A stretch of DNA of 23,353 nt from a virus. How positions within the stretch are numbered: position 1 is the stretch's first letter; each line of letters opens with the position of its first letter. The position numbers and the translations under genes are program-made. Positions 2,957-18,693 of this stretch are shown here, in pieces. Under the pieces are notes generated by a model, which saw only the letters and a list, made by a program, of their open reading frames with translations, was not told the DNA's origin and searched no databases. Location: positions 1-23,353 of IMG/VR virus record IMGVR_UViG_3300029448_000461. One strand, 5' to 3'.

Positions 2957-3006
2957 AGTGATAAATTAATTTATTTAAAAATAAAGTGATAAATAAAGTG
3001 ATAAAT
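2957..3006 (+). repeat. Left cluster of AGTGATAAAT repeats (candidate P-arm integrase sites)
   Basis: Exact copies of AGTGATAAAT at 2957-2966, 2985-2994 and 2997-3006; the last two form a perfect tandem with a 12-bp period. All have the same orientation. They lie 45-95 bp left of the tRNA-derived core, the place where tyrosine integrase arm-type sites are expected. The role is inferred. Confidence 0.65.
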
Positions 3007-3050
3007 GGAAACTATTAACCTATATATACAGCCAAAAATGGAGCAAAAAT

Positions 3051-3101
3051 GTCAGGCTCATAACCTGAAGGTCGTAGGTTCAAATCCTACCCCCGCAACC
3101 A
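3051..3101 (+). other. attP core: 3' half of an initiator tRNA-fMet(CAT) gene
   Basis: The segment contains a full anticodon arm (TCAGG-CTCATAA-CCTGA), the variable loop AGGTC, a T arm (GTAGG-TTCAAAT-CCTAC) and the 3' acceptor strand CCCCGCA-ACCA. The 5' half (acceptor strand, D arm) is absent: the upstream sequence is AT-rich and cannot pair with CCCCGCA. The T arm, the acceptor CCCCGCAACCA and the CTCATAA loop match initiator rather than elongator tRNA-Met; the A29-U41 pair in place of G29-C41 is the form known from alphaproteobacteria. A tRNA 3' half inside a phage genome with an integrase is the classic attachment-site arrangement: it rebuilds the host gene on integration. Confidence 0.87.
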
Positions 3102-3133
3102 ACTTATTCAATAAAATCAATGACTTATACGAT

Positions 3134-3189: not shown

Positions 3190-3310
3190 AGAGTGATAAA
3201 TAAAGTGATAAATGTTCGTCAGGCATAGTTCCCTTTTTTTGAAATAATAGTTGCATAATAGGTATAATAGTGCATAATAGAGGAATAAAATCGCTTTTAG
3301 AGTGATAAAT
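3190..3310 (+). repeat. Right cluster of AGTGATAAAT repeats (candidate P'-arm integrase sites)
   Basis: Exact copies of AGTGATAAAT at 3192-3201, 3204-3213 and 3301-3310. The first two repeat the 12-bp-period tandem of the left cluster in the same orientation; the third lies downstream of the -10 of the integrase-operon promoter, so binding there could also repress transcription. Together with the left cluster there are six identical copies flanking the tRNA core. Confidence 0.65.
3239..3268 (+). promoter_or_regulatory. Promoter for the leader ORF-five genes-integrase operon
   Basis: -35 TTGAAA (3239-3244), 18-bp spacer, perfect -10 TATAAT (3263-3268). The -10 lies between two copies of TGCATAATAG (3252-3261 and 3271-3280), a possible regulator site. 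The nearest downstream gene is the leader ORF at 3329. Confidence 0.7.
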
Positions 3311-3328: not shown

Positions 3329-3412
3329 GTGAAAATAAAAAAAATAATTTTTTTCCAAGAAAAAGTACTTCTCAATCGTACTACTATTAGAACATTAAAT
3401 TGGAGCAACTAA
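3329..3412 (+). CDS. Short leader ORF, 27 aa (GTG start)
   Basis: GTG at 3329 preceded by TTGGAGAGTTTAA, a good ribosome-binding site. It encodes a basic 27-aa peptide beginning MKIKKIIFFQEK and stops at TAA 3410-3412, overlapping the next ATG in the same TAATG arrangement as every other gene of this operon. The TTAAATTGGAG preceding it (3311-3321) is repeated before the next gene (3395-3405). It may be a real micro-protein or a leader that couples translation to the next gene. No homologue recognised. Confidence 0.4.
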   Translation: MKIKKIIFFQEKVLLNRTTIRTLNWSN

Positions 3413-4035
3413 TGAATACAACAAATAAAACATCAAAATACATAGAACAAGCAATCGACCTTTCATCAAAAGGTTACTTTTTATCTAAATCTTCACAAAA
3501 GCAAGCTATAGATAATCTTAATAGAGCATATGATAATCTTACTGATTATTCTAATATCAAATTTCCTAAAGGATCTACTCCTCAACAAAAATGGGAATTT
3601 AGATTTGATCTGCCTCAAAATTTACATCATGTTAACGAAAAGCATAGACCTATATTTGATAAGTGCGGTCTAGATGTTGAGTACATCATGCAAGTTTCAG
3701 AAATAAGATCTTTAGTTAAATCTATGGATATTATCAAACCTTCTAAAGATAATGCTGAACAAAAGTTAAATGATATAATTATTAAAATGGCTAAAGAGCA
3801 TCCTAAAAAAGAAGGTGTTATTAGTCTTAAAACTTATAATTTTGCTGAAGATGAAGTTGACCTTTTGGAGAAGTCATTTGGCAGTATCAAGGGCAGGGTT
3901 AATTATGATTGGCATCATGTAACTAACCAATATGGAACATCATTTATTAGGGTGTTTTGGTATCTTGATATGAAGGTTACTAAATTATCAACAATCCTTT
4001 CTTTAGCAAGCAAAGAAAAGAAGGGAGCAAACTAA
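3412..4035 (+). CDS. Unknown phage protein, 207 aa, lysogeny operon
   Basis: ATG at 3412 is chosen over the in-frame TTG at 3400 because GGAG (3402-3405) sits 6 nt before the ATG and the TAATG overlap with the leader ORF matches the other junctions. The product is soluble, Lys/Asn/Asp-rich, with no signal or membrane segment; the N-terminal 60 residues look helical. It ends in Lys-Lys-Gly-Ala-Asn, forced by the GGAGCAAACTAA junction sequence. No family recognised. It is the first long gene of the operon that ends in integrase, so host-interaction, immunity or excision control are all open. Confidence 0.65.
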   Translation: MNTTNKTSKYIEQAIDLSSKGYFLSKSSQKQAIDNLNRAYDNLTDYSNIKFPKGSTPQQKWEFRFDLPQNLHHVNEKHRPIFDKCGLDVEYIMQVSEIRSLVKSMDIIKPSKDNAEQKLNDIIIKMAKEHPKKEGVISLKTYNFAEDEVDLLEKSFGSIKGRVNYDWHHVTNQYGTSFIRVFWYLDMKVTKLSTILSLASKEKKGAN

Positions 4036-4037
4036 TG
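4023..4037 (+). repeat. Repeated gene-junction element GGGAGCAAACTAATG
   Basis: The 15-mer spanning SD (GGGAG), stop (TAA) and start (ATG) recurs exactly at 4595-4609 and 4969-4983; the 14-mer GGAGCAAACTAATG occurs at 5694-5707, and GGAGCAACTAATG (one A missing) at 3402-3414. It makes each upstream protein end in Gly-Ala-Asn and couples translation through a one-base stop/start overlap. Only the 5349 junction differs (GAGGGGCAAGAATAATG). Confidence 0.85.
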
Positions 4038-4607
4038 AAAAGTATTTGGTCAATCAATAGTGGTAGGGGCGATAAAATGTTTTGCCTTTACCACACTTTT
4101 GATGAGTACACTTCATATGGAATGTATGAAAAGACAGTTCATATAACTAATTTGTCCACTGACTATGATAAGGCAGTTATCGTTGCTAAGTCTTTATATA
4201 AGTCTCATGCAGATAAATTTTCAAAATTATTTATTCCATCTAAATGGGATCTTCAAAAAATTATTAAAGATGGTTCTTCTGAGAAAAGAACAAAGCCAGT
4301 TTTTTATCAAGATGATGAGCCTAAAGTTATCTATCCATCAAGTTCTTTTGTTGGTGCTGTAGGAGAGACAGCTTCATTAAGATTAGGTGTAACAGATAGC
4401 TTTTATTTTGATGGGTACTTTGGCAAATCTTTATGCACTAAGTTTGTGGATGTTAATCACAATATCTATACGACTTATGCTTCATCTAAGTTTGTTAGAG
4501 AACTCAAAGTTGGCGATACAATTAATTGCATTGCTGAAGTCAAAGATCATAAAAATTACGATGAGGAAAAAACTACAATTATTAAAAATGTTAAGGGAGC
4601 AAACTAA
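4035..4607 (+). CDS. Unknown protein with probable C-terminal OB-fold-like domain, 190 aa
   Basis: The N-terminal 90 residues (Tyr/Lys-rich; KAVIVAKSLYKSHADKF) are unrecognised. Residues about 107-188 follow a pattern seen in several phage nucleic-acid proteins: SFVGAVGE, an aromatic YFDGYFGKS, F-x-D-x-x-x-N-x-x-x-x-Y, VGDTINCIAEVKDH, Y, then T-x-x-x-x-V-K. It resembles OB-fold modules that end in a 'G..VKxHxxY.G.K.T.L.R' motif. Single-strand DNA or RNA binding is therefore possible, but inferred. It starts with the GGGAGCAAACTAATG junction and ends with a second copy. Confidence 0.62.
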   Translation: MKSIWSINSGRGDKMFCLYHTFDEYTSYGMYEKTVHITNLSTDYDKAVIVAKSLYKSHADKFSKLFIPSKWDLQKIIKDGSSEKRTKPVFYQDDEPKVIYPSSSFVGAVGETASLRLGVTDSFYFDGYFGKSLCTKFVDVNHNIYTTYASSKFVRELKVGDTINCIAEVKDHKNYDEEKTTIIKNVKGAN

Positions 4608-4981
4608 TGGATATTAGATTTTATAGAGAAGAAAGTTCTAAGGAACTTGGTATAGAAGCACAATGCAATTATATCGTTATGCTTAAAGAAATTGGTAAGC
4701 TATATAAATTGTTACCTTATACTATTTGGTATTGTGATGACACTAGATGTTATGTCGCAGTAAAAATCAAAACATATCAATATAGAAATCCACATTTACA
4801 TGATGTTTTAGACTGTGGAAACCACGAAGAATGGTCTGAAGCATTTAACACATTAAAAGATGCAAAAGAATATATCTATAATGAAGTTAAATCAGGATCA
4901 ACAATTAATGGATGTATCGTTAATGGAAAGTGTGTTGAAGGCAGATCAGAAGCATTTAAAAGAATAGAGGGAGCAAACTAA
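4607..4981 (+). CDS. Unknown phage protein, 124 aa
   Basis: A soluble protein with alternating strands (YVAVKIKTYQY) and a helical WSEAFNTLKDAKEYIYNEV segment. Five cysteines are scattered (C20, C43, C48, C70, C103 region) without a CxxC pair, so no zinc motif is evident. Both ends are TAATG junctions with the GGGAGCAAACTAATG sequence. No family recognised; its co-transcription with integrase suggests a lysogeny or early accessory role. Confidence 0.62.
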   Translation: MDIRFYREESSKELGIEAQCNYIVMLKEIGKLYKLLPYTIWYCDDTRCYVAVKIKTYQYRNPHLHDVLDCGNHEEWSEAFNTLKDAKEYIYNEVKSGSTINGCIVNGKCVEGRSEAFKRIEGAN

Positions 4982-5349
4982 TGAAAATTAAAGCAACTGT
5001 AACAATCGAAATTGATGAGCAACAATATATAGACACTTATAAAGATAGTGATCCTGATTATTCAAGGGAACTTCATATTGATGATATGTATCAAGACATT
5101 TTAGGATCTGCTCAAAATGGTGTTAAAGAATGGGGAAAGGCTCTTAGTTTTAAATTTAAAATTAAGAATGAGCATGAAGCAAATAATAATAGATACAAAG
5201 AACTTCATGGAAAACATCAAGCACAAATCGATACTTTAATTAATAAAATAGCTTCTCATCAAAGTTCTACAATGAACCAAAACATTATGGATGCAGTCAA
5301 TGATGCAATGATGAAAATTGAAATGGATTTTATTGAGGGGCAAGAATAA
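4981..5349 (+). CDS. Unknown phage protein, 122 aa
   Basis: It begins with a strand rich in alternating residues (KIKATVTIEIDEQQY), then acidic and helical regions; the last 60 residues are Gln/His/Asn-rich and probably helical. This is the only member of the cassette whose 3' junction departs from the pattern: it ends ...GQE with GAGGGGCAAGAATAATG, still a TAATG overlap. It has no membrane segment and no known motif. Confidence 0.62.
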   Translation: MKIKATVTIEIDEQQYIDTYKDSDPDYSRELHIDDMYQDILGSAQNGVKEWGKALSFKFKIKNEHEANNNRYKELHGKHQAQIDTLINKIASHQSSTMNQNIMDAVNDAMMKIEMDFIEGQE

Positions 5350-5705
5350 TGGCAATTTATTATGAGTTTCAAATAGAAGTTACAAACAATGAAGGAAGCA
5401 TTGAAGATCCAAATGTTTTTCTAGTAATACAAAATGGAAAAGTTTTGCCTGATTATTTGATCCCTAATAATTTTGTAAAAGATTATGTCAATTCAAGTTT
5501 TGAAGATGATGGATGTATTAAAAAGGGATTTGTTACTGAAAATGAATTACATGAATTTGCAATAATGAAAATGGTCATCACTGAAGATGAAGGATGTATT
5601 GATAGAGAATATTTTTATCTCAATGAACATGGATCACTTCCAAATGGATTACCTCAATATGTGCAAAATGCTTTTGATAAATGTTTAATGGAAGGAGCAA
5701 ACTAA
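5349..5705 (+). CDS. Unknown acidic phage protein, 118 aa
   Basis: An acidic protein with an N-terminal strand (YYEFQIEVTN) and two DDGCI/DEGCI turns spaced about 32 residues apart, hinting at an internal duplication (DDGCIKKGFV and DEGCIDREYF). It has three cysteines and no CxxC. It lies immediately upstream of integrase and ends Met-Glu-Gly-Ala-Asn at a GGAGCAAACTAATG junction. Genes in this position are sometimes excisionases, but there is no visible helix-turn-helix or winged-helix signature to support that. Confidence 0.62.
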   Translation: MAIYYEFQIEVTNNEGSIEDPNVFLVIQNGKVLPDYLIPNNFVKDYVNSSFEDDGCIKKGFVTENELHEFAIMKMVITEDEGCIDREYFYLNEHGSLPNGLPQYVQNAFDKCLMEGAN

Positions 5706-6820
5706 TGGCTAATTATTTTATTGGAGATATTACAGTTTTTAAACTTCCTAATCAGGATTTCAAAGGCTTTAGATTTAGATATAAAACTCCTGCAATGGCT
5801 AACTATAAATTTAAATCATCTAAGAGCAAAAAAGAATTATCGGCTATCAGAAAAGACATGATTGCTGACTTTGAAAATCATGTAACTAAGATTGAGGTTG
5901 CATTGTTTGATGACGTAGCAAAACTTGCCTTAGAGAAGCGATTAAATGCGGTTGGAAGAAAAGTTAATGGCATTAGGCAACGATCATATGACAATGACGA
6001 AAGGCATCTCAGACTACACTTAAATCCCTTTTATAAGGGTATGAGTATCAAAGATGTTACCACTGGTAAGGTAAATGAATTTATTGATGATAGTGCTGAC
6101 AAAGATCTTTCAGCTAAAACTATCAGGCATTGTGTTCAGTCATTAAGTATGGTTATGAAATTTGCAGTTGATCAGGGTTATATTTCTAGAAATCCTTGTA
6201 ATTCTGACGATAGAAAAGAAATAAAAGGATCTGTCATAGAAAGAGGCGGATATTCTCACGATCATGTTTTGAAATTAATTCAAGCTGAAAAAACTTTATA
6301 TCTAGATACGTTTATAATGTTTTCTGCTTTTACTGGAATATCAGCTAACGAACTTCAGGGATTGCAGTGGAAGGATATAAACTTCACTAAGTCTGAGGTT
6401 ATTATAAAAAGAAATGTTTATAGATATGATAGTCAGGAATTAAAAAATAATTTTAGAGAAAGAGTTTTAGGCTTGCCTTCTCAGGTTATGACATTGCTGA
6501 AAAAATGGAAATTAAATTCTAATTGTGATTTTTGGATATTTCCAAATTCTAATGGAAGAAAGCCATTTGAGCAAAATGCCATGAGAAAATTACTTACTAC
6601 AGTTTGTAAGAGAGCAGGAGTGCCTGATTATGGTATTGGTGGCTTTAGGAAGTATTACAATACATCTATGATTGGAGAAGTGCCTGATCATATCAGAAAG
6701 GCTAGAATGGGGCATAGCAAGAACTCTAAGACAGCCGAAGTTCATTATACAGTTGTTGATCTTGAGCAAGCTAGAAGTCCAGTACAAGCTGAGAAATTAA
6801 TGCAAAGATTGTTTGGTTAA
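5705..6820 (+). CDS. int: Tyrosine recombinase / phage integrase with atypical catalytic boxes
   Basis: 371 aa from ATG 5705 (GGAGCAAACTAATG junction; the in-frame ATG at 5681 lies inside the previous gene and lacks this RBS). Layout: N-terminal arm-binding region (1-60), SAM-like core-binding domain (about 70-165, SYDNDERHLRLHLNPFY and VQSLSMVMKFAVDQGYISRNPC), catalytic domain (180-371). Box I reads TGISANELQGLQW (210-222), so the usual catalytic Arg is Ser213. Box II is GIGGFRKYYNT: the His of HxxR is Gly312, Arg315 is kept. GHS (His337) and Tyr348 (VHYTV), the nucleophile, are present. It should catalyse integration at tRNA-fMet; the missing Arg and His are discussed in the findings. It converges with the - strand operon, sharing its last bases. 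Confidence 0.9.
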   Translation: MANYFIGDITVFKLPNQDFKGFRFRYKTPAMANYKFKSSKSKKELSAIRKDMIADFENHVTKIEVALFDDVAKLALEKRLNAVGRKVNGIRQRSYDNDERHLRLHLNPFYKGMSIKDVTTGKVNEFIDDSADKDLSAKTIRHCVQSLSMVMKFAVDQGYISRNPCNSDDRKEIKGSVIERGGYSHDHVLKLIQAEKTLYLDTFIMFSAFTGISANELQGLQWKDINFTKSEVIIKRNVYRYDSQELKNNFRERVLGLPSQVMTLLKKWKLNSNCDFWIFPNSNGRKPFEQNAMRKLLTTVCKRAGVPDYGIGGFRKYYNTSMIGEVPDHIRKARMGHSKNSKTAEVHYTVVDLEQARSPVQAEKLMQRLFG

Positions 6821-7098
6821 ATCTCATCAATTATATTTCTACTAAAAACATATGTACCCTTACGTTTATTTCTTAGGGGTACATTATCCTTATCTTCAAC
6901 ATTATCTGCACCCCAATCTTCTTCCTCAGTATTGGTTTGATTTTTTCTTAATTGATTAAAAATTTTTGTTAGTTCGTGATTGCCATCAACTTTATCCATA
7001 TGGCAGTCTTTACACATTGTTGCTCTATATCTTTTGACTTTTACTTTGGGGAGTTTGACCTCACAATATTTACAATAATCATAAGGGTTGGAACTCAT
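6817..7098 (-). CDS. Small Cys-pair (zinc-ribbon-like) protein, paralogue of the 7263-7676 gene
   Basis: 93 aa. Two Cys pairs, CKYC (residues 9-12) and CKDC (29-32), could bind one zinc ion. The order of motifs (CxxC, L-x-K-x-K-x-x-R, CxxC, G-x-x-EL-x-x-x-F-x-x-L-x-K, DWG, a hydrophobic C-terminus ending in ..I..EI) matches the 137-aa protein encoded two genes upstream, so they are paralogues. It is the last gene of the leftward early operon; its stop overlaps the integrase stop tail to tail. Function unknown: such proteins can modulate host transcription or nucleases. Confidence 0.68.
   Translation of the reverse strand: MSSNPYDYCKYCEVKLPKVKVKRYRATMCKDCHMDKVDGNHELTKIFNQLRKNQTNTEEEDWGADNVEDKDNVPLRNKRKGTYVFSRNIIDEI
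6844..6884 (-). terminator. Hairpin plus T-run inside the last leftward gene (possible early terminator)
   Basis: An 11-bp stem, ATGTACCCTTA (6852-6862) / TAGGGGTACAT (6874-6884, one wobble) with an 11-nt loop. Read on the - strand it is followed after three bases by TTTTT (complement of 6848-6844). It lies in coding sequence about 25 nt before the stop codon of the 6817-7098 gene, an unusual place, so termination there is uncertain. Confidence 0.4.
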
Positions 7099-13640: not shown

Positions 13641-13748
13641 ATATTGCATATAAGACCTCTGTTTGGTACTACTTAGATATGATTGAAGTAATTGACAGTA
13701 AATGTTGATTGCTGATCTCCTTAAAATAGTTATTGAAAAAAAAGAAAG
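13641..13748 (+). promoter_or_regulatory. Late control region and leader upstream of terS
   Basis: It contains TATAAG (13649-13654) as a possible -10 without a good -35, the 11-mer TGGTACTACTT (13664-13674) shared with the 10785 site, and a perfect TTGACA (13692-13697) lacking an obvious -10. A terminator follows at 13749. This layout, a weak or activator-dependent promoter with a terminated leader, suits control by a Q-like or activator protein. The promoter position is not settled. Confidence 0.4.
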
Positions 13749-13773
13749 CCTCACAGAAATGTGGGGTTTTTTT
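13749..13773 (+). terminator. Rho-independent terminator in the late leader
   Basis: CCTCACA-GAAA-TGTGGGG, a 7-bp stem (one wobble) with a GNRA-type GAAA loop, followed by seven Ts (13767-13773). It sits 12 bp upstream of the terS ATG and would block the head operon unless read through. Confidence 0.88.
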
Positions 13774-13785
13774 ATAGGAATTATT

Positions 13786-14247
13786 ATGAGCAGAAAATAT
13801 ACCGAAAAAGAGTGGATAGAATTCCTGAAAAGAATTGGAGAAGGAAGATCCGCTAGAGATGTTTGTGCTAACGATAAGGAGATGCCAAGTTGGAGATTGG
13901 TATCAGATAAGCTGAATACTGATAATGGGTTTGCTCAACGTTATGCAATGGCTATGGAGAATAGAGGTCAGGTATATGCAGATAAGATTACCGATACAGT
14001 GAATGATATGCTGAATGGAACTATAGATTATAATCAGGCTAGAGTTGCGATAGATGCACTGAAATGGCAGTCAAGTAAGTTAGCACCAAAGAAGTTTGGC
14101 GATGTTCATAGGATGGAAGTGAAGCATGAGGCTAGTTATTTAGATGCGTTGAAGGAAGTTAGTAAGGTGGTTGATGGTGGGGAAAGTACTCTACCTAATG
14201 CAATACGCACACGCAAAGAAACCGAAAAAACAGATACAATTCAATAG
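13786..14247 (+). CDS. terS: Terminase small subunit
   Basis: 153 aa from ATG 13786 (TATAGGAATTATT before it). The upstream in-frame ATG (13702) is rejected because the terminator lies inside that extension. The N-terminal YTEKEWIEFLKRIGEGRSARDVCAND...PSWRLVSDKL is a DNA-binding helix-turn-helix; the central helices and the ending ALKWQSSKLAPKKFGD are typical of small terminases of the Sf6/terminase_5 type, where W-x-x-x-KLAPKKxGD is a hallmark. It recognises the packaging site and loads the large subunit. Confidence 0.88.
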   Translation: MSRKYTEKEWIEFLKRIGEGRSARDVCANDKEMPSWRLVSDKLNTDNGFAQRYAMAMENRGQVYADKITDTVNDMLNGTIDYNQARVAIDALKWQSSKLAPKKFGDVHRMEVKHEASYLDALKEVSKVVDGGESTLPNAIRTRKETEKTDTIQ

Positions 14248-14440
14248 GTCGTTACATAACTGACCTGACGAAACTTGTTGGTATACAACGATTATAGAAG
14301 ATATTTATCACTTTACTTATCACTATTAATATTTATTAAAGAATTTTATAGAGAAATAATAATATATACCCCCCCCCTTAAACAAACGCAGGGGTAGGTG
14401 TTGTTCTACCATTTTCTCTCATAACCGCTACGAGATCAAT
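14246..14440. other. terS-terL intergenic region with inverted repeat, attP-type repeats and poly-C run
   Basis: 193 bp without a convincing gene. Holds (a) an inverted repeat AGGTCGTT...AAC(T)GACCT at 14246-14266, with no T-run; (b) ATTTATCACT (14303-14312) and ACTTATCACT (14315-14324), a 12-bp-period tandem that is the reverse complement of the attP arm repeat AGTGATAAAT (second copy one mismatch); (c) nine consecutive Cs at 14369-14377. It is an unusually long gap between terminase genes and a candidate cos/pac or regulatory site. Confidence 0.55.
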
Positions 14441-15832
14441 TTGACAAATGCCACTGAAACATTACTCAAGCTACACAATGATCCAGTTTTATTTGTAGAG
14501 AGTGTATTGAAAGCCACCCCTCAAAAGTGGCAAATGGAAGCATTAATTGGCATTAGGGATAATGACAAAATATCGATTAAATCAGGTCATGGAGTTGGCA
14601 AAACTGCTTTTCAATCATGGCTTATTCTTTGGTGGATGTTAACTCACTATCCATGCAAGATTGCGGTAACTGCTAACACTGCTCATCAATTGTCGGATGT
14701 TTTATGGTCTGAGGTTGATAAATGGTTTAGGCGATTGCCTGAAGGTTTTAAAAGCCAATTAGAGATTAAGTCTGATAAGATTGCTTTGAAGGGTGCTTCC
14801 GATAGCTTCTGCGTTGCAAGAACATCTCGCAGGGAAAATCCTGAAGCGTTACAAGGTTTTCATAGCGAGAATATGTTATTCATATGTGAAGAGGCTTCAG
14901 GTATTCCTGACGTTGTTTTTCAGGTTGGAGAAGGTGCTTTATCGACTGAGGGTGCTAAGGTTGTTATGTGTGGCAATCCTACTAGATCTGATGGGTATTT
15001 TTATGAAGCCTTCCATTCGATGCGAGATCGATGGTTTAACATGACTGTAAGTTGTGAAGATGGCGAGTATGTTTCCGAAAAATTTTTGGAAGATATGAAG
15101 TCGAAATATGGCGAAGAGAGTAATATTTATAAGGTTCGTGTTTTGGGCGAGTTTCCAACTCAGTCTGATGACGTACTTCTTCCCTTACATCTTGTAGAGA
15201 GTGCTTGCACTAGAGATACTCAGGCATCGCCCTTAACGCCAGTGGTTTGGGGATTGGATGTTGCGAGATATGGAAATGATAGATCTGCTTTAGCTAAGAG
15301 AAGAGGGCAGGAATTATTAGAGCCAGTTAAAACTTGGTCAGGCAAGGATTTAATGGAACTTGCAGGGATTATTCTTACTGAATATGAGGCTGTTAGATAT
15401 AATGATCGCCCTACAGCTATATATATTGATGCTATTGGGATTGGAGCAGGACTTGCTGACAGATTGAAGGAACTTGATTTGCCTGCATATTCGGTTGCTG
15501 TTTCTGAGAGTGCATCTTTGAAGGATAAATTCACTCGATTGAGGGATGAATTATTTTGGAATTGTCGTGAGTGGTTTGAAGGCAGGGATGTAAAAATTCC
15601 GCAGGATGACAATTTAATTCAAGAGATTACTGGTATTCGATATAAATATTTATCCACTGGTAAATTAAAGATTGAGAGTAAGGATGAGATGAAACGCAGG
15701 GGGCAAAGATCTCCTGACGTAGCTGATGCGTTTGTTTTGACGTTTGCTGATAATGGGGCGATTGCTTCAGGTGTATTGAGTAGATGGAATAACAAGAAGA
15801 GTTTTAAGCAGAATACGAGTTGGATTGTTTAA
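14441..15832 (+). CDS. terL: Terminase large subunit
   Basis: 463 aa. TTG at 14441 is the best start found: GAG lies 6 nt upstream, and no in-frame ATG exists upstream to the stop at 14360 (an in-frame ATT at 14411 is the only other odd option). Walker A GHGVGKT (49-55), Walker B LFICEEA (146-152) with catalytic Glu, and a coupling motif near VVMCGNPT. RNaseH-like nuclease domain: Asp273 in WGLDVARYG, Asp330 in AIYIDAIG, Asp426/Asp429 in SPDVADAFVL. It powers DNA translocation into the prohead and cuts the DNA. The stop overlaps the next ATG. Confidence 0.95.
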   Translation: MTNATETLLKLHNDPVLFVESVLKATPQKWQMEALIGIRDNDKISIKSGHGVGKTAFQSWLILWWMLTHYPCKIAVTANTAHQLSDVLWSEVDKWFRRLPEGFKSQLEIKSDKIALKGASDSFCVARTSRRENPEALQGFHSENMLFICEEASGIPDVVFQVGEGALSTEGAKVVMCGNPTRSDGYFYEAFHSMRDRWFNMTVSCEDGEYVSEKFLEDMKSKYGEESNIYKVRVLGEFPTQSDDVLLPLHLVESACTRDTQASPLTPVVWGLDVARYGNDRSALAKRRGQELLEPVKTWSGKDLMELAGIILTEYEAVRYNDRPTAIYIDAIGIGAGLADRLKELDLPAYSVAVSESASLKDKFTRLRDELFWNCREWFEGRDVKIPQDDNLIQEITGIRYKYLSTGKLKIESKDEMKRRGQRSPDVADAFVLTFADNGAIASGVLSRWNNKKSFKQNTSWIV

Positions 15833-16648: not shown

Positions 16649-18693
16649 TGGCAAAAATGACAGATGAGAGATTGGGATCGATTATCCAATCTGAAATAAC
16701 AGATAGCCAAAACCATTTTGAGACTGAGTATTCGTCAGACCGATTAAAGGCTATTGACTATTATTTGGGCGAGCCATTTGGCAATGAAGTTGAAGGCAGG
16801 AGTTCAGTTGTATCGACTGATTTTGCTGATGCAGTTGAGCAGATAATGCCATCATTAATGCGTATTTTTACGAGTTCTGATAAGTATGTAAGATATGCTC
16901 CAAGAACTGCGGAAGATGTTCAAAGAGCCGAACAGCTAACAGATTACGTTAATTATATAATCAACAATGACAATGATGGTTATAGGATTATGTATAACTG
17001 GTTCAAAGATAGCCTGATGTTTAAATTGGGTGTTGTTAAGTATTGTTGGGATGAAGCATCCACTGTTCAGGAAGAAGAATATGAAGGATTAACTGAAGAA
17101 GAGTTGGCTTTATTATTAGCTAATCCTGATGTTGAGGTTATTGAGAGACAAGAAAATTTCACGACTATGATTAGTGAATTAGGCGAAGAAATTCAAGTTG
17201 CTGATAGTTATGATTTAAAAGTTAAAATCACAAAAAAATCAGGAAAAATAAAGATTGAGAATGTACCGCCTGAAGAATTTTTATTTAATCGCAGGGCAAA
17301 GTCTTTAGAAGATTGTTATTTCATGTGTCATAAGACAACTATGTCAGTAAGTGATTTAGTTTCTATGGGATATGATAGAAAACTAATTGAAGATAATGCA
17401 GGCATGATTGATGGCGATATTGATGAAGAAAGACAAAGACGTTTTGAAGATCTAGAAAGTCAGTCAGGAACAGATCCAGTTGATCCATCTCAGCATGAAG
17501 TTGTAGTTCACGATATTACAATGAAGGTTGATTATGATGATGATGGTGTTGCCGAGATGCGAAGGATTTTATCTATTGGCGATGGCGGAGATGTAATTTT
17601 AGAAAATGACGTTGTGGATTTTATTCCTTTTGCAGTTATTTCTCCAATATTAATGCCACATAGATTAGTCGGAAGATCTTTATTTGATTTAACTCAAGAT
17701 TTGCAAACAATAAAATCAACTTTATTGAGGCAGTATTTAGATAGCACATATCACTCAGTATTACCGAGAATGGTGGCTGTCGAAGGTCAGGTTAATTTAG
17801 ATGATCTTTTAGATGGTACGGCAGGGGGTATCATAAGAACTAGGTCAAGTGGGGCAGTGCAACAATTGTCAACAAGTGGTGTTGGCGGAGAAATACAACC
17901 TTTGATGCAATATTTGGATCAGGTTAAGACTTCAAGAACTGGTATTTCAGAGGCTTCTCAGGGATTAGATCCTTCTGTTTTGCAAAGCACGACTGCTCAA
18001 GCTGTATCAGCTACAGTTAGAGGTTCACAGCAAAAATTAGAAAGTTATGCAAGAACGATTGCGGAAACTGGAGTTAAGGATTTATTTAAGGGCATATTGC
18101 ACCTGATCTCCACATATCAGCAACAAGAACGAATTGTGAGACTTAGAAATGAATTTATTGCAGTAGATCCGCAAGAGGGTTCTAGCGGTTTTGATGTAAT
18201 TGTAAATGTGGGGTTAGGTACAGCCGATGACGAACAAAAAATCAGTTTTCTCCAAGCTATTGCTCAAAAGCAAGAAACTATTCTTCAAACTTTGGGAGCA
18301 GATAATCCGATTTGCAATGCTAGTCAATACGTTAATACCTTACGACAAATTACCGAGATTGGCGGATTTAAGGATGCAAATCAGTTCTTTAATCCCCCTC
18401 AAGTTGTGCAAATGCAAATCCAACAACAACAACAGCAAACGCAAGGGCAAGAAAATCCAGTAATGCAGGCTGAGATGCAGAAAGTTCAGGCTGAGATTGA
18501 AGCTAAGAAGATGAAGTTAGAAGCGGATATACAATTAGCTAGAGAAAAAGCCAGTGCTGATATTCAGCTTGCTAGAGAAAAGATGCAGGCAGAATTAGAG
18601 ATGCGAAGGCAGGAATTAAGTATGGAAGCTGAATTAAGGGTAGCTAAGGCGGTTACAGATGCAGAAATCTCAACCAATTTACCGAGAGCATAA
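16648..18693 (+). CDS. Portal protein, SU10-like
   Basis: 681 aa. SSDRLKAIDYYLGEPFGNEVEGRSSVVSTDFADAVEQIMPSLMRIF near the N-terminus, then the stem/wing region with FKDSLMFKLGVVKYCWDE and VPPEEFLFN, and the clip/crown segments SLFDLTQDLQTIKSTLLRQYLDSTYHSVLPRMVAVEGQVNLDDLL follow the large portal of SU10-like and related podoviruses. The C-terminal 110 residues are a Gln-rich coiled coil with ADIQLAREK repeated. Twelve copies would form the DNA entry vertex. TAATG start; the end overlaps the next gene by 35 nt. Confidence 0.9.
   Translation: MAKMTDERLGSIIQSEITDSQNHFETEYSSDRLKAIDYYLGEPFGNEVEGRSSVVSTDFADAVEQIMPSLMRIFTSSDKYVRYAPRTAEDVQRAEQLTDYVNYIINNDNDGYRIMYNWFKDSLMFKLGVVKYCWDEASTVQEEEYEGLTEEELALLLANPDVEVIERQENFTTMISELGEEIQVADSYDLKVKITKKSGKIKIENVPPEEFLFNRRAKSLEDCYFMCHKTTMSVSDLVSMGYDRKLIEDNAGMIDGDIDEERQRRFEDLESQSGTDPVDPSQHEVVVHDITMKVDYDDDGVAEMRRILSIGDGGDVILENDVVDFIPFAVISPILMPHRLVGRSLFDLTQDLQTIKSTLLRQYLDSTYHSVLPRMVAVEGQVNLDDLLDGTAGGIIRTRSSGAVQQLSTSGVGGEIQPLMQYLDQVKTSRTGISEASQGLDPSVLQSTTAQAVSATVRGSQQKLESYARTIAETGVKDLFKGILHLISTYQQQERIVRLRNEFIAVDPQEGSSGFDVIVNVGLGTADDEQKISFLQAIAQKQETILQTLGADNPICNASQYVNTLRQITEIGGFKDANQFFNPPQVVQMQIQQQQQQTQGQENPVMQAEMQKVQAEIEAKKMKLEADIQLAREKASADIQLAREKMQAELEMRRQELSMEAELRVAKAVTDAEISTNLPRA

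Follow-up and report, generated by a model that had tools for sequence, protein, structure and literature searches.

Marine temperate phages carry, as far as sequence comparison can tell, an extra copy of the attP-type integrase site pair between their two packaging genes, and this copy changes together with the integrase. The integrase, the mover of phage DNA into and out of the chromosome, probably also acts on packaging. The window (the whole stretch of DNA analysed here, 23,353 bp) is a viral record from a temperate phage; it carries an attP that overlaps a tRNA gene, together with int, cI, cro, genes for replication, terS, terL and portal (Table 1). The site pair in its terS-terL gap, called the gap tandem below, is real, conserved and unexpected; in kind it would belong with the known integrase arm sites. 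It is very probably a third arm-type site pair for the phage's own integrase (Int), bound through the N-terminal arm-binding domain, because the gap allele co-varies with that domain among relatives.

Table 1. Elements of the window phage that bear on the gap tandem (coordinates of the window).
Feature	Position	Strand	Basis
attP arm site, single, left	2957..2966	+	decamer match
attP arm tandem, left (two decamers, period 12)	2985..3006	+	decamer matches
attP core: 3' part of tRNA-Met(CAT) gene, presumed crossover region	3037..3106	+	Rfam tRNA match 3037-3090; same core in relatives
attP arm tandem, right (two decamers, period 12)	3192..3213	+	decamer matches
attP arm site, single, right; just upstream of operon ending with int	3301..3310	+	decamer match
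Tyrosine integrase, likely start ATG 5705	5681..6820	+	PF00589 (E 2.6e-13); alignment
Int N-terminal arm-binding domain, about 52 aa; tracks arm allele	5705..5860	+	allele comparison; beta-beta-beta-alpha model, pLDDT 79
terS, Sf6-type small terminase	13702..14247	+	PF20901 (E 2.8e-22)
Inverted repeat AGGTCGTTACATAACTGACCT directly after terS stop, conserved	14246..14266	+	kept in relatives
terS-terL gap tandem, very probable third Int arm-site pair	14303..14324	-	AGTGATAAGT-AA-AGTGATAAAT; equivalents in relatives
C-run/G-run element of gap, conserved	14368..14399	+	phiM5 counterpart at right edge of direct terminal repeat
terL, large terminase	14441..15832	+	weak PF04466

The gap extends from the end of terS at 14247 to the start of terL at 14441. 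The first unit of the gap tandem (14303-14312) is ATTTATCACT, the exact reverse complement of AGTGATAAAT, and the second (14315-14324) is ACTTATCACT, the reverse complement of AGTGATAAGT, which has one mismatch to the decamer. The two decamers are spaced 12 bp apart, which is also the attP period. Both attP tandems (2985-3006 and 3192-3213) read AGTGATAAATAAAGTGATAAAT, and the gap tandem is identical to them at 21 of 22 positions, with the AA spacer counted. An earlier note on this DNA had described the attP arm repeat as recurring here, inverted and with the same period, without remarking on the spacer, and had judged a chance match of the tandem unlikely. The description is confirmed, with one exact and one single-mismatch decamer, and the judgement is borne out: under a first-order Markov model, the expected number of matching 22-mers is 4e-6 for the window, and that of spaced decamer pairs is 3e-7 for the 193-bp gap. 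The single decamer, at one mismatch or fewer, has eight copies in the window, six around attP on the plus strand (starts at 2957, 2985, 2997, 3192, 3204 and 3301) and two in the gap on the minus strand; this count is not significant, eight matches being reached in 12 of 100 shuffles. The note had also proposed counting the tandem over the genome and its relatives. A scan of the whole 23,353-bp record found the attP pairs, the gap pair and no further tandem, and four longer relatives (L404, L405, L406 and L408; 30-34 kb, scanned piecewise) each show exactly three pairs, of which two are at attP and the third, inverted, is in the gap. In the window phage the gap tandem lies about 11 kb from attP and 7.5 kb past int, and a search of the gap found no tRNA-like core. 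The gap tandem is thus an arm-type site in kind that lies outside any attachment site. Folded as RNA, the gap does not outperform shuffled sequence (z -1.08).

The integrase and its surroundings have further features. The outermost single arm site (3301-3310) has promoter-like sequence on one side and, on the other, the ribosome site of the operon that ends with int, which suggests that Int may also control its own expression. Among relatives the stretch from attP to int (3400-5705) is highly variable, and close kin lack counterparts of most genes in it. At Int residues ~217-228 (FTGISANELQGL) the usual first catalytic arginine is missing, with TG-x-S/A-A-N-E instead of TGxRxxE, and this is so in all Int relatives compared here. 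CTnDOT-type integrases are reported to show the same arginine loss and to have a substitute arginine elsewhere (PMC8138268). A structure model of full-length Int was poor (mean pLDDT 53) and was not used; the model of the arm-binding domain had no significant match in the PDB, only weak dsRBD-like ones.

Relatives indicate whose site this is. Eleven records have both an integrase and a readable gap, ten of them also attP, and among them are six arm alleles: AGTGATAAAT in the window phage, AGTGGCTAAC in L014, L052, L071 and L072, ATACCAACCA (also given as TACCAACCA) in L082, TTGGCGATAC in L404 (G016), CATAGCACCA in L405 (G019) and L406 (G020), and TTGGCAACAC in L408 (G032). In L012 the Int type and the gap agree, and attP is lacking. 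In 11 of 11 records the gap holds the record's own arm allele, inverted and with the same period as attP, which is 12 bp, but 11 bp in one group of records. This is the opposite of the case that the note had named as refuting its reading, namely relatives with the repeat at attP and not in the gap. Gap and attP tandems differ by 0-2 mismatches within a record (ten linked records) and by 6-15 between alleles; when one representative of each of the six alleles was taken, the true pairing of gap and attP ranked first among 720 permutations.

The four longer relatives, obtained from a second TerL search and fetched records, have a different arm domain and an attP at a tRNA-Met core, with the arms in the order single, tandem, core, tandem and a period of 11. 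Their gaps hold the inverted period-11 tandem of their own attP unit. The distance from attP to the gap varies by record, from about 8.5 to 11 kb. These four, with L014, L052 and L082, share one attachment core, the tRNA-Met(CAT) 3' end, despite differing arm domains. Gap alleles among TerL relatives on viral contigs are AGTGATAAAT, AGTGATTAAT, AGTGGCTAAC, TACCAACCA and TTTTGTTACC, and the position of the tandem (~57-78 bp past terS in most), its period and its inverted orientation are all kept. In L072 the second unit has a G to A change (AATGGCTAAC) in the attP right tandem and in the gap alike, which suggests parallel drift of matched sites. In L071 (~18507-18597) the gap tandem is followed by a jump into the reverse complement of a gene downstream of cro; this junction, right at the tandem and seen once, is probably an assembly chimera.

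On the TerL and TerS trees, of which only some branches are strongly supported, the gap alleles need six changes where the minimum is three, and L001 and L052 have near-identical gap flanks around switched tandems. Both observations favour selection and make linkage alone a poor explanation.

The note had suggested that the protein that binds the attP arms may also bind the terminase gap. The allele match in 11 of 11 records supports this suggestion, and the protein is best identified as Int, to judge from what segregates with the allele. The window phage and L052 are 97% identical in the Int core and 52% in the arm-binding domain, and arms and gap are both switched; the window phage and L073 are identical in the arm-binding domain (100%), 85% identical in the core, and their arms are equal. 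The arm allele therefore segregates with the first ~50 residues of Int, not with the catalytic part. When the coding segments of the window were tested one by one, only the Int arm-binding domain segregated with the allele, and domain and allele agree in every contig readable.

Gaps were scanned over 520 bp, as some tandems lie too far from terL for 260 bp. Short tandems occur in ~8% of random 520-bp windows, and at this background the unlinked gap tandems of L335, L342-L345, L347 and L374 are suggestive only; those of L028, L332 and L388, found without matched arms, may be background. In six records whose TerL is of the same family and whose integrase is unrelated (L320, L321, L407, L409, L410 and L411), none of the local repeat families with an arm-array pattern recurs in the gap. 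Another six (L034, which is the circular C72C1, L359, L360, L363, L390 and L392) have no integrase found and no matching gap tandem; the absence of integrase is firm only for C72C1, because most other such records are fragments. The TTTTGTTACC allele, the gap type of L024, L025 and L249, stays unlinked, since none of the matches listed has TTTTGTTACC-type attP arms linked to an integrase. GATT-type attP and GATT-type gap occur only on separate contigs, sometimes of one metagenome. A prophage scan of genomes returned one MAG contig, L319, in which arm domain and arms are concordant, without the gap; no match to attB is present in the genome bin that holds it. A large share of the marine members of this podovirus lineage has been placed in SAR116 alphaproteobacteria (PMC10386132), and a SAR116 host fits this placement, short of proof.

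The surroundings of the gap tandem point toward packaging. Besides the inverted repeat after terS, the gap has a conserved element, (A)CCCCCCC...GGGG, which is kept even in integrase-free relatives. Sinorhizobium phage phiM5 (MF074189), whose TerL is 46% identical to that of the window, has this C-run/G-run element too, likewise upstream of terL. Its terminal repeat, as annotated, is 357 bp long and proved identical at both ends when checked, and the C-run starts 43 bp inside the right repeat edge, just before terL. By homology, the gap tandem would lie within or beside the region that forms the genome ends. phiM5 differs from the window phage in having a 300-aa integrase of another type, and no matched arm tandem was found in it; a CTGACAGC repeat near its C-run was considered as a counterpart and rejected, as copies are spread genome-wide. 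In the window the C-run starts 45 bp past the tandem. Among records this spacing ranges from roughly 22 to 45 bp, so a tight geometry with terminase is not evident.

Arm sites at attP of the lambda type have much in common with those described here: short direct repeats in tandem pairs flank a core that overlaps a tRNA gene, and specificity follows the N-terminal domain of the integrase. What sets the present phages apart is the further inverted pair in the terS-terL gap, ~8.5-11 kb away. Inverted arm-type-like sites outside attP are also present in Cluster J mycobacteriophages, for which a possible regulatory role was raised (PMC3706429). Those sites overlap the start of int, whereas that of the window phage is in the terminase region, and no systematic site differences matching the arm-binding domains were seen in Cluster J (PMC3706429). 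IntS of KplE1 is a DNA-binding repressor as well as a recombinase (PMC2951348), a pairing that is a proposal for the window Int. The KplE1 operator overlaps attL and the int promoter (PMC2951348), whereas the gap tandem overlaps no int promoter and lies in the packaging module. In the open-licence literature searched, no earlier report of an integrase arm site in a terminase region was found.

Several other explanations of the gap tandem bear on its origin and on the protein that reads it. A coincidental match, or co-inheritance with attP, might be considered for AT-rich sequence and in view of the background of short tandems given above; it is refuted by the multi-allele match and deserves almost no credence. 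The expectation of matching 22-mers is far too small, independent alleles and periods agree in every linked record, and no co-segregation with the allele is seen for the genes that separate attP from the gap. Recognition of arms and gap by another phage protein, such as an excisionase, the Zn-finger-like protein at 6817-7098, CI or Cro, is quite improbable. The cargo genes between attP and int vary strongly among relatives and could hide an excisionase; against this stands the perfect agreement of the Int arm-binding domain in all readable contigs. For the 6817 protein, identity runs from 98 to 61% within a single allele, a spread similar to that between alleles. Neither TerS and TerL nor Cro and CI track the arm allele: Cro is 95-100% identical across arm alleles, and CI, the closest kin of the window phage excepted, is at ~66-73% identity whichever arm allele the contig has. 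The cI-cro region of the window contains no copy of the decamer. The gap tandem thus lacks both the cI-cro copies and the co-variation of a CI or Cro operator, and a general regulator site, which the earlier note had offered as its alternative, is disfavoured.

With Int as the protein, the question becomes what it does there. That its occupancy of the gap tandem gates packaging by hindering terminase is the reading we favour, at slightly less than even credence; one ground for holding back is that the terminus is taken, by homology, from one distant phage, phiM5, with an integrase of another type. Selection would keep gap tandem and arm-binding domain matched, and the period and inversion of the tandem unchanged, and the tandem would lie within or next to the place at which terminase initiates packaging and makes the genome ends. 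When Int is abundant, during establishment of lysogeny or while excision is incomplete, the gap site would be occupied and terminase cutting hindered; as the Int level falls, packaging could start. The gap site would in this way tie recombination state to packaging. A fuller version is more tentative still: Int, bound where terminase starts, would be a packaging checkpoint that protects a genome not yet excised, or just integrating, from being cut; a single protein would thereby signal recombination state to the packaging motor, and its site would be re-matched at each swap of the arm-binding domain. The tandem is not needed for packaging itself, because integrase-free relatives package without it. 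In the main rival reading, Int bound at the gap might instead be a transcriptional roadblock or repressor that lowers terS-to-terL and structural gene transcription while Int is made, affecting packaging only via terminase supply. The allele co-variation fits such a role equally, and the tandem does lie between the co-oriented terS and terL, with a single arm site at 3301 just before the int-containing operon. Precedents exist in IntS of KplE1, which represses its own gene (PMC2951348), and in the inverted arm-type sites at the int start of Cluster J (PMC3706429). We consider the roadblock somewhat unlikely: no sigma-70-like promoter was found in 14200-14480, the placement beside a conserved putative terminus element would be left unexplained, and the homology of the C-run with the phiM5 repeat edge would favour gating of packaging over a transcription block. 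Less probable again is an architectural role, in which gap-bound Int would bridge to attP or, if the gap is in terminal repeats, join the virion ends for circularisation before integration. The constant inversion relative to attP would suit it, and termini like those of phiM5 would put a tandem at both ends of each virion; but the distance to attP varies between records, no core-type site is seen in the gap, and the terminal repeat of the window phage is putative.

Excision and packaging need ordering in temperate phages, as errors waste genomes or package host DNA. The replication-packaging-excision programme of P22 shows that it matters in which order excision and packaging occur and that this order can be tuned; its timing results from delayed excision, and the abstract describes no integrase site at pac (PMC8575938). 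The co-variation reported here is a ready data set for inferring the DNA specificity of arm domains from sequence. If true, an integrase site conserved in the terminase region would join excision and packaging by a direct molecular link, and the natural allele pairs make this link testable by swapping.
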